A stretch of DNA of 64,000 bases from Pseudooceanicola endophyticus. GTDB lineage: Bacteria > Pseudomonadota > Alphaproteobacteria > Rhodobacterales > Rhodobacteraceae. Location: positions 1 to 64,000 of the forward strand of contig NZ_JAHIAB010000005.1 of the NCBI RefSeq assembly GCF_018760365.1, read 5' to 3'. Position 1 is the first letter of the stretch. Every line of letters begins with the position of its first letter. The notes beneath the pieces were generated by a model that worked only from the letters and a program-made list of their open reading frames with translations, did no database searches and was not told where the DNA came from. Below are positions 23,453 through 38,475 of the stretch, in pieces. The translations under genes and the position numbers were made by a program.

Positions 23453-23481
23453 TTGACCCACCGCACGGTTTCCCGTATAGG
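23453..23481 (+). promoter_or_regulatory. Candidate GTA promoter with palindrome in the spacer
   Basis: TTGACC (23453-23458), exactly 17 bases, TATAGG (23476-23481). The spacer carries ACCG-CA-CGGT (about 23460-23469), a two-fold symmetric site that a repressor or activator could use. The probable transcript start near 23488 lies at the ATG of a short leader frame. It is the only good core promoter I see in the 209 bp mltG-g1 gap. Confidence 0.6.
23454..23469 (+). repeat. 16-base repeat, copy in the GTA promoter
   Basis: TGACCCACCGCACGGT, overlapping the -35 box and spacer. An exact second copy is at 25190-25205, starting with the TGA of the terminase gene. Exact 16-base identity in two non-coding positions of one operon is unlikely by chance. 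Confidence 0.65.
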
Positions 23482-23488
23482 TTGTGAC

Positions 23489-23569
23489 ATGCTGGAACAC
23501 ATGGGCAAACGGCCCGGGGGAAACCCCGAGGCCGTTTTTTCGTGCTGCGCGTCGGAGGGACAACGATAA
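23489..23569 (+). CDS. Possible 26-codon leader peptide upstream of GTA g1
   Basis: ATG at 23489 to TAA at 23567, reading MLEHMGKRPGGNPEAVFS and eight more residues. It starts within a base or two of the predicted transcript start (near-leaderless) and its codons run through the terminator-like hairpin at 23507-23540, so a translating ribosome would melt it. There is no ribosome binding site. It is reported as a hypothesis for attenuation control, not as an established gene. Confidence 0.3.
   Translation: MLEHMGKRPGGNPEAVFSCCASEGQR
23507..23540 (+). terminator. Intrinsic-terminator-like hairpin in the GTA leader
   Basis: AAACGGCC (23507-23514) pairs with GGCCGTTT (23530-23537), CGGGG (23515-23519) with CCCCG (23524-23528), with one bulged A and a GAAA tetraloop, then the T run TTTTTT (23535-23540). 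It lies between the GTA promoter and g1, so it should stop most transcripts unless read-through or antitermination occurs. It could alternatively be the distant terminator of mltG. Confidence 0.65.
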
Positions 23570-23586
23570 CGCACGAGGCAAACAAA

Positions 23587-23916
23587 ATGACAACTCGGTC
23601 CGACAGAGACGAGACCCGGCTGCGGGACACCATCGACAGGCTCGATCGCCAGATCGGCGACATCACCAGGGATCTGGAGGCGCTGCAGGACAGGGTGCGC
23701 GCCGGCGATGTCACGGCGGTCGGGGAAACGACGAAGATGTGTCAGGAGATCCGCAAATGGATCGGTTTTGCAATGGAAATGGAGGCCAAGCTCGATGACG
23801 GAAGACAGGGACAACGGGCGGGCGGAGACATCGACCTCGGGGCCGCAAGGGCTTCGATCGGGTGCCGCCTGGATCGCCTCCGCAGGTGCGGACATCCAGA
23901 ACGCATTCCTGGATGA
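23587..23916 (+). CDS. GTA g1, small terminase-like protein
   Basis: 109 residues from the ATG at 23587 (GAGGCAAACAAA upstream). The N-terminal two thirds is a strongly charged amphipathic helical region (DRDETRLRDTIDRLDRQIGDI, then LEALQDRVRAGDV), likely a coiled coil, followed by KMCQEIRKWIGFAMEMEAKL. By position it is RcGTA g1, shown in R. capsulatus to act as the small terminase (TerS). The last 40 codons overlap the start of terL in another frame, so the Arg-rich C-terminus (RRCGHPERIPG) is constrained by that gene. Function is assigned by synteny and size; the sequence alone is weakly diagnostic. Confidence 0.8.
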   Translation: MTTRSDRDETRLRDTIDRLDRQIGDITRDLEALQDRVRAGDVTAVGETTKMCQEIRKWIGFAMEMEAKLDDGRQGQRAGGDIDLGAARASIGCRLDRLRRCGHPERIPG

Positions 23917-25192
23917 CCTTGATGAGGGAGAGCTTCGTGCTCTCCCTTTTTTGCTCGAATTCTGGGCCCTGCCGCATCAGCTGCCCCCCGAGGGGGACTG
24001 GCGGTCCTGGGTGATCATGGGCGGGCGCGGCGCGGGCAAATCGCGGGCGGGTTCGGAATGGGTGCGGACCCAGGTCGAGGGCAACCTGCCGCTGGAGCCG
24101 GGGCGCTGCCGGCGCCTTGCGCTGGTGGGCGAAACCTTCGATCAGGTGCGCGACGTGATGATCTTTGGCGAAAGCGGCATCATGGCCTGTTCGCCCCCCG
24201 ATCGCCGTCCGCTGTGGAAGGCCAGCGAGCGCAAGCTGATCTGGCCCAACGGCGCCGAGGCGCAGGCGTTTTCCGCCAGCGAGCCCGAGGCGCTGCGCGG
24301 CCCGCAGTTCGACGGCGCCTGGCTGGACGAGCTGGCGAAGTGGAAGAAGGCGCAGGACACCTGGGACATGCTGCAGTTCGCGCTGCGGCTGGGCGAGGAT
24401 CCCCGCGTCTGCGTCACCACCACGCCGCGCAACGTCGGCGTGCTGAAGAAGCTGCTCGAAAGCCCCTCGACCGTGGTGACCCATGCGCCCACCGAGGCCA
24501 ACCGCGCCAACCTGGCCGACAGCTTCCTGGAGGAGGTGCGGGCGCGTTACGCGGGCACGCGGCTGGGCCGGCAGGAGCTGGACGGCATCCTGATGGCCGA
24601 TGCCGAAGGGGCGCTCTGGACCGAGGCGATGCTGAGTGCGGCGCAGGTCACGGAGGTGCCGCCGCTGGATCGCATCGTCGTGGCGGTGGACCCGCCGGTG
24701 ACGGGCCACGAGGGGTCGGATGAATGCGGCATCATCGTCGCGGGCGTCGTGCGCTCGGGGCCGGTGGGCAGCTGGCAGGCCTATGTGCTGGAGGATGCCT
24801 CGGTGCGGGCGGCCTCTCCTCGGCAATGGGCCGAGGCGGCGGTGGCGGCGATGGCGCGCCATGGGGCCGACCGGATCGTCGCCGAGGTCAACCAGGGCGG
24901 CGACCTGGTGGAAAGCGTGATCCGGCAGGTCGATCCCCTGGTGCCGCTGAAGCAGGTGCGTGCGACCCGGGGCAAGGCCGCGCGGGCCGAGCCGGTCGCC
25001 ATGCTTTACGAGACGGGCCGTGTGCATCACGTGCGCGGCCTTGGCGCGCTGGAGGATCAGCTGGCCCAGATGACCACCCGGGGCTGGGAGGGCAAGGGCA
25101 GCCCGGACCGGCTGGATGCGCTGGTCTGGGCGCTGCACGAGCTGGTGCTGTCGCAGCGCAGCAGCGCGCGTCCCCAGCTTCGGGCCATCTGA
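23795..25192 (+). CDS. terL: GTA g2, large terminase subunit
   Basis: DNA-packaging ATPase and nuclease. 465 residues from the ATG at 23795 (GGAGG nine bases upstream). ATPase: Walker A GGRGAGKS at 76-83, Walker B GAWLDE at 174-179, coupling motif VTTTPRN at about 207-213. Nuclease: VVAVDPPVTG (Asp299) and the C-terminal DRLDALVWAL. The N-terminal AFLDDLDEGELRALPFLLEFWALPHQLPPEG is typical of GTA-type TerL. It begins 122 bases inside g1. Known GTA terminases package headfuls without sequence specificity. The stop codon starts the second copy of the 16-base repeat. Confidence 0.96.
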   Translation: MTEDRDNGRAETSTSGPQGLRSGAAWIASAGADIQNAFLDDLDEGELRALPFLLEFWALPHQLPPEGDWRSWVIMGGRGAGKSRAGSEWVRTQVEGNLPLEPGRCRRLALVGETFDQVRDVMIFGESGIMACSPPDRRPLWKASERKLIWPNGAEAQAFSASEPEALRGPQFDGAWLDELAKWKKAQDTWDMLQFALRLGEDPRVCVTTTPRNVGVLKKLLESPSTVVTHAPTEANRANLADSFLEEVRARYAGTRLGRQELDGILMADAEGALWTEAMLSAAQVTEVPPLDRIVVAVDPPVTGHEGSDECGIIVAGVVRSGPVGSWQAYVLEDASVRAASPRQWAEAAVAAMARHGADRIVAEVNQGGDLVESVIRQVDPLVPLKQVRATRGKAARAEPVAMLYETGRVHHVRGLGALEDQLAQMTTRGWEGKGSPDRLDALVWALHELVLSQRSSARPQLRAI

Positions 25193-25205
25193 CCCACCGC
25201 ACGGT
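25190..25205 (+). repeat. 16-base repeat, copy at the terL stop
   Basis: TGACCCACCGCACGGT, identical to 23454-23469, in the 117 bp terL-portal gap. No matching -10 box lies at 17 bases here, so it is not simply a second copy of the promoter; an AT-rich TTTAAT follows at 25219-25224. Confidence 0.65.
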
Positions 25206-25309
25206 GGTCTGAGGCGAATTTAATCCATTTGCAGCACATTCCTCGCACGGCCCGGGACGAACCCGGCCACCGCCCGGGGGCGGGACGCGACGCAAGCAAG
25301 GAGAGACGC

Positions 25310-26503
25310 ATGGGGGTCATCGACTATTTCCGCAAGGATGCCGGGTCGTCCGACAAGGGCGCGCCGGAGCGGAAGGCCTCGGCCACGGGGCGCATCGTTG
25401 CCTATGCCAGCGGCGGTCGTGTCGCCTGGTCCGCGCGCGATACCGCAAGCCTGACGCGGACCGGCTTTACCGCCAACCCCGTGGTCTTTCGCGCGGTGAA
25501 GCTGGTGGCCGAGGCCGCAGCCTCTCTGCCGCTGATCCTGCAGGACGAGGCGCGCCGCTATGACCAGCACCCGGTGCTGTCGCTGCTGCGCAACCCCAAT
25601 CCGATGCAGGGCCGGGCCGAGCTGTTCGAGGCGCTTTATGGCCAGATGCTGCTGACCGGGAATGCCTACATGGAGGCCGTCGCCGCCGAGGAAGGCACGC
25701 CGGTCGAACTCTACGTCCTGCGCTCGGACCGGATGAGCCTGGTGCCCGGCGCGGATGGCTGGCCGGTGGCTTTCGATTACACGGTGAATTCCAGCAAGGT
25801 GCGCTTCGACGTGTCGGGGCCGCGCTCTCCGATCCTGCATCTGAAGACCTTCCATCCGCAGGATGACCATTACGGGCTGTCGCCGCTGCAGGCGGCGGCG
25901 CAGGCGCTGGACGTGCACAACTCGGCCTCGCGCTGGTCGAAGGCGCTGCTGGACAATGCCGCACGGCCCTCGGGGGCGATCGTCTACAAGGGCACGGATG
26001 GCGAAAGCACCATGAGCCCCGACCAGTTCGACCGCCTCGTGGCCGAGATGGAGATGTACCATCAGGGCGCCGCCAATGCCGGCCGGCCGATGCTGCTGGA
26101 GGGGGGGCTGGACTGGAAGCCCATGGGCTTCAGCCCCTCGGACATGGAGTTCCACAAGACCAAGGAGGCCGCCGCGCGCGAGATCGCGATTGCCCTGGGC
26201 GTGCCGCCCATGCTGCTGGGCATCCCCGGAGAGGCCACCTATGCCAATTACCAGGAGGCCCACCGCGCCTTCTTCCGCCTGACGGTGCTGCCGTTGGTGA
26301 CCCGTGTCACCGCCGCCGTGGCCGAATGGCTGGAACGTTTCAGCGGTGAACAGCTGGAGTTGCGCCCGGATCTGGACCGTGTGCCGGCGCTGTCGGCGGA
26401 ACGCGACAGCCAGTGGAAGCGCATCGGCGAGGCCGATTTCCTGACCCGTGCCGAGAAGCGCGCCGCCCTTGGCCTGCCGCCTCTGGACGATGGCGATGCC
26501 TGA
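25310..26503 (+). CDS. GTA g3, phage portal protein
   Basis: Twelve-fold ring at the capsid vertex through which DNA is pumped. 397 residues from the ATG at 25310 (AAGGAGAGACGC upstream). HK97-type portal features: VVFRAVKLVAEAAASLPL, LLRNPNPMQGRAELFEALYGQMLLTGNAY in sequence, VYKGT..., EFHKTKEAAAREIAIALGVPPMLLGIPGEATYANYQEA (the clip/wing region) and a C-terminal WLERF. Length is as expected. It overlaps the next small gene. Confidence 0.95.
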   Translation: MGVIDYFRKDAGSSDKGAPERKASATGRIVAYASGGRVAWSARDTASLTRTGFTANPVVFRAVKLVAEAAASLPLILQDEARRYDQHPVLSLLRNPNPMQGRAELFEALYGQMLLTGNAYMEAVAAEEGTPVELYVLRSDRMSLVPGADGWPVAFDYTVNSSKVRFDVSGPRSPILHLKTFHPQDDHYGLSPLQAAAQALDVHNSASRWSKALLDNAARPSGAIVYKGTDGESTMSPDQFDRLVAEMEMYHQGAANAGRPMLLEGGLDWKPMGFSPSDMEFHKTKEAAAREIAIALGVPPMLLGIPGEATYANYQEAHRAFFRLTVLPLVTRVTAAVAEWLERFSGEQLELRPDLDRVPALSAERDSQWKRIGEADFLTRAEKRAALGLPPLDDGDA

Positions 26504-37610: not shown

Positions 37611-38414
37611 ATGGCCAACACGCAAGCAAAGCTCGCCGAGCTGGATCCCGTTTGGGACCGTATCACCCGCGAGGCGAAGGTCGCCATTGCGGATGAGCCG
37701 CTGCTCGGCGGTATGGTTCATTCAACCATCCTGCACCACGCCTCCTTCGAACGCGCGCTGTCCTATCGGATCGCGATGAAGCTGGCTTCGGACGACATGC
37801 CCGGGCAGCTGCTTCGAGAGATTTGCGACGAGGCGATCAGCGCCGATCCCGCGATCCCCGAAGCCGCGCGGGCAGATATCGTCGCGATCTACGACCGCGA
37901 TCCGGCCTGCCATCGCTTCCTTCAGCCGCTTCTCTATTTCAAGGGTTTCCAAGCCGTGCAGGCCTATCGCATCGGCCACTGGCTGTGGGAGCAGAAACGC
38001 GTCGACCTGGCCTATTTCTTCCAGATGCGCTCCTCCGAGGTCTTCGGGGTCGATATCCATCCGGCGGCCCGGATGGGCAAGGGGATCATGATCGACCATG
38101 CCCATTCCATCGTGGTGGGCGAAACGGCCGTGGTGGGCGATAACGTGTCCATGCTGCATTCGGTGACGCTGGGCGGCACCGGCAAGGAAGAGGAAGACCG
38201 CCATCCGAAGATCGGCAACGGGGTCCTGATCGGGGCCGGGGCCAAGGTGCTGGGCAATATCAGCATCGGTCACTGCTCGCGGATCGCGGCGGGGTCTGTG
38301 GTGCTGAACGAGGTGCCGCCCTGCACGACCGTCGCAGGGGTGCCCGCCCGCATCGTCGGGGAGGCGGGCTGCGATCAACCCTCGATCAAGATGGACCAGA
38401 TCCACGGCGTCTGA
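37611..38414 (+). CDS. cysE: Serine O-acetyltransferase
   Basis: First step of cysteine synthesis from serine and acetyl-CoA. 267 residues from the ATG at 37611. The helical N-terminal domain has DPVWDRITREAKVAIADEPLLGGMVHSTILHHASFERALSYRI; the left-handed beta-helix hexapeptide part has GVDIHPAARMGKGIMIDHAHSIVVGETAVVGDNVSMLHSVTLGGTG and KVLGNISIGHCSRIAAGSVVLNEVPPCTTVAGVPAR (catalytic His in IDHAH). It is the conserved right neighbour of GTA clusters in this order. Confidence 0.96.
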   Translation: MANTQAKLAELDPVWDRITREAKVAIADEPLLGGMVHSTILHHASFERALSYRIAMKLASDDMPGQLLREICDEAISADPAIPEAARADIVAIYDRDPACHRFLQPLLYFKGFQAVQAYRIGHWLWEQKRVDLAYFFQMRSSEVFGVDIHPAARMGKGIMIDHAHSIVVGETAVVGDNVSMLHSVTLGGTGKEEEDRHPKIGNGVLIGAGAKVLGNISIGHCSRIAAGSVVLNEVPPCTTVAGVPARIVGEAGCDQPSIKMDQIHGV

Positions 38415-38442
38415 CCCGCATCTGATCACGCGTGTTCTTCAG

Positions 38443-38475
38443 ACCCCGCCTTTTTTCTGAGGCGGGGTTTTGCTT
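38443..38475 (+). terminator. Rho-independent terminator after cysE
   Basis: ACCCCGCC-TTTTTTCTGA-GGCGGGGT then TTTGCTTTG, 29 bp past the stop. Confidence 0.85.

Follow-up and report, generated by a model that had tools for sequence, protein, structure and literature searches.

The 64,000-nucleotide stretch of the Pseudooceanicola endophyticus genome analyzed here (hereafter, the window) carries a GTA cluster in which mltG (YceG family), terL, portal, protease, and capsid genes are neighbors. The sequence TGACCCACCGCACGGT occurs in the window in two exact copies, at 23454-23469 and 25190-25205, the same two places reported in a preliminary description of this DNA. Copy 1 lies in a promoter of the form TTGACC-N17-TATAGG, and copy 2 begins on the terL stop codon, TGA (25190-25192), both as previously described. 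With up to three mismatches allowed, the window holds the two exact matches and three with three mismatches each, compared to a mean of 0.86 and a maximum of 3 in shuffled sequence (0 of 100 shuffles reach 5). The two copies are the only exact ones in the 5.2-Mb assembly (46 contigs), and seven further places in the genome match at two mismatches, compared to four for a reversed-pattern control. The conserved part common to both copies is an 8-base core, CGCACGGT. The remaining eight letters form part of the -35 element in copy 1 and part of the stop codon in copy 2, and we take their identity between the copies for coincidence. Chance repetition was also considered for the core itself and is ruled out by the fixed-offset counts in terL-portal gaps given below. 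The features of the locus are listed in Table 1.

Table 1. Features of the promoter, leader, terL, and terL-portal gap in the window
Feature	Position	Strand	Basis or remark
-35 of the GTA promoter, TTGACC	23453..23458	+	TTGAC conserved at 99-100% in 97 leaders
Spacer core CGCACGGT, within the dyad ACCG-CA-CGGT (23460-23469)	23462..23469	+	Proposed loading site for the GafA C-domain (GafZ type)
-10 of the GTA promoter, TATAGG	23476..23481	+	First two positions T 94%, A 100% in 97 leaders
CATGCT within the start-site block CANGCTRGAAGA	23488..23493	+	Candidate sigma pause element; predicted start site
T1, predicted leader intrinsic terminator (hairpin and six T)	23507..23540	+	Folding of the window; covariation in relatives
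g1, presumably the small terminase, start ATG 23587	23587..23916	+	Own reading of the frame
terL (g2) open frame, start codon provisional	23708..25192	+	ORF list; family match
T2, terminator-like hairpin within the terL codons EGELRALPFL (six T)	23924..23952	+	Fold scan; codon test
Site 2 core CGCACGGT	25198..25205	+	Comparison of terL-portal gaps
TTAA at offset 22, counted from the first base of the site 2 core	25220..25223	+	Comparison of terL-portal gaps
-10-like box CACATT	25235..25240	+	Second A 98%, final T 71% in 41 loci
g3 (portal), first gene past the proposed second promoter	25310..26503	+	Family match

Generic scans of the window listed neither the GTA promoter nor the leader hairpin, the former because TATAGG lacks a final T and the latter because the hairpin has a bulge, and the case therefore rests on comparison. 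A terL gene was found in 20 of 22 genomes of the same genus, the window's own included, and in 175 of 198 genomes of the family. From 173 genomes of other genera we took the 80 loci with the highest scores and 20 more from lower ranks; these 100, together with the window's own locus and 19 same-genus loci, give a set of 120. One same-genus genome (G005) has a second, partial terL relative (L029), which was dropped. An additional set of named loci was gathered via the solved portal protein of Rhodobacter capsulatus, with 80 loci kept of 125 confirmed.

The comparison reveals a conserved leader unit in Rhodobacteraceae, which consists, in order, of TTGAC, CGNNCGGT in the spacer, a -10, the CANGCTRGAAGA block at the predicted start site, a covarying hairpin, and a T-run. 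A leader profile of 49 rows, many of them from genomes also among the 120, detects the unit in 97 of the 120 loci; in the named loci, which are nearly independent of the profile, it is found in 78 of 80, including R. capsulatus. The window's own leader as the sole query finds matches in 44 of 198 family genomes. The leader went undetected in 23 of the 120 loci (one contig ends there), and all 23 of these genomes have a DUF6456 match. Across the 97 leaders, the spacer core reads C (90%), G (99%), two free positions, C (100%), G (93%), G (66%), and T (87%), and the second A and final T of the CANGCT block, which correspond to positions 2 and 6 of a -10, are invariant. The suggestion of a two-fold symmetric operator in the spacer is thus borne out to the extent that the spacer word is a conserved element, but the left dyad arm, ACC, is not conserved family-wide in the main promoter. 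Both copies of the repeat are kept in relatives, contrary to the outcome that the preliminary description had named as refuting its reading, namely that neither copy would be conserved in close relatives. An open frame starting at GTG 23484 runs over the leader and is probably a false call, as its match falls into pieces over the leader in several relatives. With g1 starting at ATG 23587, the leader between the promoter and g1 is about 100 bases long. In one genome (G076), terL matches over residues 9-209 only and has two internal stops; its leader nonetheless scores 87.7 bits.

The hairpin and T-run of the leader, T1, is by folding and covariation a predicted intrinsic terminator before g1. 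The predicted fold of the window's own leader has a free energy of -31.2 kcal/mol (z, -3.7), and folding gives a hairpin with a T-run for 170 of the 175 leaders detected, a count that is partly circular because the leader profile contains the hairpin. Among the 161 leaders that contain the start block, 153 rows are distinct; over eight consensus pairs, 94.4% of cells are paired, compared to a shuffled maximum of 86.9%, and double changes that keep the pairs fill 99 cells, compared to a shuffled maximum of 38; these shuffles do not keep relatedness among rows. A 40-row alignment contains 40 double changes against a shuffle mean of 15, and 0 of 500 shuffles are as high. When one arm of this alignment is slid by one column, 35 double-change cells remain against 40, and the pairing cells fall to 54% from 85%.

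A short, structured, and conserved leader with its own promoter could also be a regulatory small RNA some 50 nt long, with the GTA operon read from elsewhere or by leak. We consider this quite improbable, as the leader, where detected, stands a short distance upstream of terL, and the available text on R. capsulatus assigns the transcription start of the GTA operon to the probe containing the GTA promoter (PMC6363796). An Rfam search of the window brought tRNA alone to threshold and left the leader without a known RNA family. The small RNA StsR of R. sphaeroides was considered as an identity for the leader and set aside, with no link in the accessible portion of one paper. A search for a phage origin gave no leader match up to an E value of 0.01 among 50,697 phage records.

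Besides T1, the only terminator-like site on the plus strand between 22 and 38.4 kb of the window is T2, which is encoded within terL. The generic scan also lists T2, but 0.9 such sites are expected by chance in the scanned stretch. We compared T2 across 98 of the 120 loci, with L013 left out as a near copy and 21 not alignable, and resampled synonymous codons for each terL. All nine pairs are present in 46 of the 98 loci, compared to 0.075 expected, and at least eight pairs followed by at least five T in 37, compared to 0.34 expected. Amino acid changes at T2 are matched in the opposite arm (GAG with GCT, GGG with GCC, and GCG with GCG). T2 begins 8 bases past the stop codon of g1, close to the beginning of terL translation, and where all nine pairs form, the tail is short of five T in 11 of the 46 loci. 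Both observations would suit a hairpin that serves translation, by way of start or coupling, rather than termination. We regard such a role as somewhat unlikely, since a T-run usually follows the hairpin and the combination of pairs and T-run exceeds expectation as given above. T2 is absent from all 52 named loci that were compared (the other 28, R. capsulatus among them, are not alignable), and its association with site 2 is weak (Fisher P of 0.014 overall and 0.31 in other genera alone). A terminator kept within codons across many genera would itself be unusual. The next terminator-like site after T2 lies just beyond the GTA cluster, where a strong plus-strand hairpin with a T-run (38441-38472) is accompanied by a weaker hairpin (38406-38455).

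The second copy of the core marks a different arrangement, which we call site 2. The pattern CGNNCGGT-N14-TTAA, with TTAA at offset 22, occurs in 21 of 112 terL-portal gaps, compared to 2 or fewer at every other offset from 8 to 60. A relaxed motif with TTAA at offset 22 occurs in 30 of the 112, compared to 3 or fewer at other offsets; these comprise 14 of 20 same-genus gaps and 16 of 92 gaps from other genera. The reverse strand gives 3 or fewer at any offset, and shuffles average 0.015. Among 41 loci selected for matching 9 or more of the 10 letters in the core and TTAA, the -10-like box is conserved with A at +38 (98%) and T at +42 (71%). The TTAA resembles a CtrA half-site. The site 2 pattern is missing from all 80 named loci.

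The preliminary description had proposed that a second operator inside the operon could act by looping or roadblock and so separate the terminases from the virion genes. The identity of the core with the promoter copy would be in keeping with an operator alone at copy 2. The fixed spacing of a -10-like box and TTAA, in a layout like that of the gafA promoters described below, argues against it, and we find an operator alone highly improbable and looping or roadblock unsupported. On the same grounds, a second promoter is the simpler account. Judged from its conserved spacing, site 2 probably serves g3 and the genes after it as a promoter that depends on GafA, and the suggested separation survives in the sense that it is compatible with a promoter between g2 and g3.

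Terminators are also found in the terL-portal gaps, in 75 of 192 overall compared to 9 shuffled and 8 antisense. They are present in 55 of the 80 named loci, compared to 20 of the 112 gaps in the genus and family set. The window's own gap gave no terminator-like hairpin in the plus-strand scan. In three site 2 loci, the predicted gap hairpin overlaps site 2 itself. Two R. capsulatus strains and R. viridis (L165, L166, and L167) lack the site 2 pattern and have a predicted intrinsic terminator in the terL-portal gap. A genome-wide regulon was sought with the strict pattern CGNNCGGT-N14-TTAA, which gave two genome matches compared to eight for a reversed control, and hence no regulon can be called.

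The candidate regulator is GafA. This genome encodes a DUF6456 protein in a 402-amino-acid open frame (E value, 2.3e-59), with N-terminal helix-turn-helix matches solely below the cutoff. DUF6456 is present in 20 of 22 same-genus and 178 of 198 family genomes and is found in Caulobacter too. We examined 50 sequences upstream of gafA (the window's own genome, 19 same-genus, and 30 from the family), in which the relaxed core is followed by TTA(T/A) at offset 22 in 15 and by CAAT at offset 36 in 16, with the next best offset for CAAT at 2. The next peak of TTA(T/A), 9 at offset 54, is a TTAA box that resembles the CtrA site described upstream of gafA in R. capsulatus, according to the available text (PMC6363796).

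Published binding data for R. capsulatus fit this motif at the level of fragments. By our reading of the gene starts, CGGACGCT lies 120-113 bases before g1 and CGAACGCT lies 145 bases before gafA, where offset 22 reads TTAG and not TTA(T/A). GafA bound one of five GTA probes, the one 76-125 bases upstream, as reported in the accessible sections of the source (PMC6363796), and CGGACGCT falls within this sole bound probe. At gafA, the corresponding sections of a second paper state that the C-terminal part, GafA-C, bound one of three 50-bp fragments, said to hold the -35, and that the N-terminal domain binds the fragments flanking the C-domain site (PMC9638019). By our own reckoning of the fragment order from what is printed, the fragment bound by GafA-C is the distal one, which contains CGAACGCT.

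On balance, we think it probable that CGNNCG(G/C)T is the site of the GafZ-like domain of GafA, used for antiterminator loading at the main promoter and for activation at g3 and gafA. The motif would be read by the C-terminal (GafZ-like, DUF6456) domain, and at the main promoter GafA would be bound in the spacer, between the -35 and the -10. Polymerase would start and probably pause over the -10-like CANGCT block. If GafA is absent, transcription would end some 50 nt downstream, at T1, with T2 in terL as an added checkpoint. With GafA, the spacer-bound protein would be handed to the paused polymerase and would carry it through the stops in a Q-like processive antitermination. Copy 2 would lie upstream in a promoter of its own, dependent on GafA and equipped with TTAA and a -10 box, from which g3 and the genes after it are transcribed, and the similarly arranged gafA promoter would provide autoregulation. 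In the simplest account, a single domain of GafA thus recognizes a single core at three promoters. At the main promoter the core is inside the spacer, as are the loading sites of Q- and GafZ-type antiterminators; at g3 and gafA it stands about 49 bases ahead of the predicted start, a position used by activators. Sites, fixed spacings, conservation, covariation, and codon bias are observed here, and the identity of the protein, the start sites, the pausing, the termination, and the readthrough are inferred.

The main promoter runs into built-in stops, so that making particles probably requires a protein that lets RNA polymerase run past them. GafA might instead merely recruit polymerase at both promoters, with the leader hairpin as a passive insulator or background limiter and with no antitermination. 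This reading agrees with what is available of the R. capsulatus work, in which GafA acts via the omega subunit of polymerase, binds it, and activates the promoter (PMC9638019). It nevertheless seems unlikely to us, because a plain activator leaves the stops unexplained: a strong conserved terminator follows a near-consensus -35, T2 is present in terL of many loci, and terminators follow terL in the gaps counted above. The preliminary description was right in pointing to an element in the promoter at this locus, and it overlooked the terminators.

We offer antitermination by GafA, in its wider form, only tentatively, as a possible circuit in Rhodobacteraceae GTAs in the style of phage late genes, with a ready promoter, a Q-like loading site, a sigma pause, and serial terminators, one of them in terL codons. 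The packaging enzymes would need an antiterminated polymerase, and the virion genes would have their own GafA promoter. The Rhodobacter/Paracoccus line has no site 2 promoter and often a terminator between terL and portal, and its whole virion operon would accordingly, under the same tentative circuit, depend on antitermination. GTA production is confined to a small share of cells. In Caulobacter, GTA producers die on release, according to the available text (PMC11150451). A ready but terminator-gated promoter, if true, would explain both the tight silence and the all-or-none firing.

The closest known parallel is the GafY/GafZ system of Caulobacter crescentus. In the accessible parts of its description, GafZ is an antiterminator with a palindromic element between the -35 and the -10, and the system shares with the present locus the spacer palindrome, a DUF6456 regulator, an early terminator in the cluster, and an untranslated leader (PMC11150451). 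This precedent contradicts, for copy 1, the earlier statement that no element of this kind has been described in GTAs. The two systems differ in that the Caulobacter terminator consists of three GC-rich 150-bp repeats after the first gene, in contrast to the leader hairpin and a further one inside terL found here; the Caulobacter -35 is degenerate and needs GafY with IHF, whereas the -35 here is TTGAC; and a GafY/GafZ pair takes the place of one fused GafA (PMC11150451, same parts). The Caulobacter element as printed, GCGCCCG-CTGGCGC, matches CGNNCGCT only if the hyphen marks no bases, and its contiguous form occurs in 0 of 341 loci and, in a search of 385 genomes that used a guessed spacing to the -10, in none.

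Lambda Q and AlpA, antiterminators loaded at the promoter, likewise have a spacer binding site, a -10-like sequence just past the start, and an early terminator, and in the available text GafZ models show no similarity to these antiterminators (PMC11150451). For RcGTA of R. capsulatus, the promoter region and the protein family are the same and GafA binding at fragment level fits the motif, as far as the accessible text goes; sites are not mapped to the base, the main texts mention no terminator, and a promoter before g3 is not mentioned in the available portions (PMC6363796 and PMC9638019). Tran and Le, in the sections available, suggest that GafA may have an unrecognized antitermination activity and note that GafA sites are unmapped (PMC11150451). 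Within the accessible text of these sources, antitermination by GafA is something previously speculated in print only. The open-licence literature, with most subscription papers outside it, yielded no description of a terminator in a Rhodobacteraceae GTA leader or terL. Antitermination in the Bartonella GTA was reportedly treated by Korotaev in 2025. The present comparison makes the published speculation on R. capsulatus GafA as an antiterminator testable, as it yields a base-level binding motif, two candidate terminators, and a predicted second start site.

Beyond the family, a covariance model of the leader (E value of 0.001, strict filters) matches 13 of 385 genomes of the class. Three of the five same-family genomes in this set are matched, at full strength only the window's own and G076, and every other match reaches 28.2 bits or less. 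One locus of another family, represented by the overlapping pieces L307 and L318, shows the promoter part only. A terL gene was found in 110 of the 385 genomes, with 26 non-family loci returned. At 507-582 bases before the terL match, four of these 26 (L318, L320, L322, and L338) carry TTGAC and a word reading ACGGT or CGCT, together with a start block of the form CANRCTC; inspection by eye shows no hairpin with a T-run after this block. In a search with the start block of L320, the other three score 15-17, compared to a shuffled maximum of 13; the 19/19 of L320 is by construction because its own block was the query. The terminator may be younger than the start-site block. The start block of L320 is followed by GAGAATTGGGTC. 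In L305, whose 3.1-kb locus gave no terL match, a leader-like promoter, hairpin, and T-run lie at about positions 1500-1580, in a 1.5-Mb genome, with a 182-amino-acid frame downstream.
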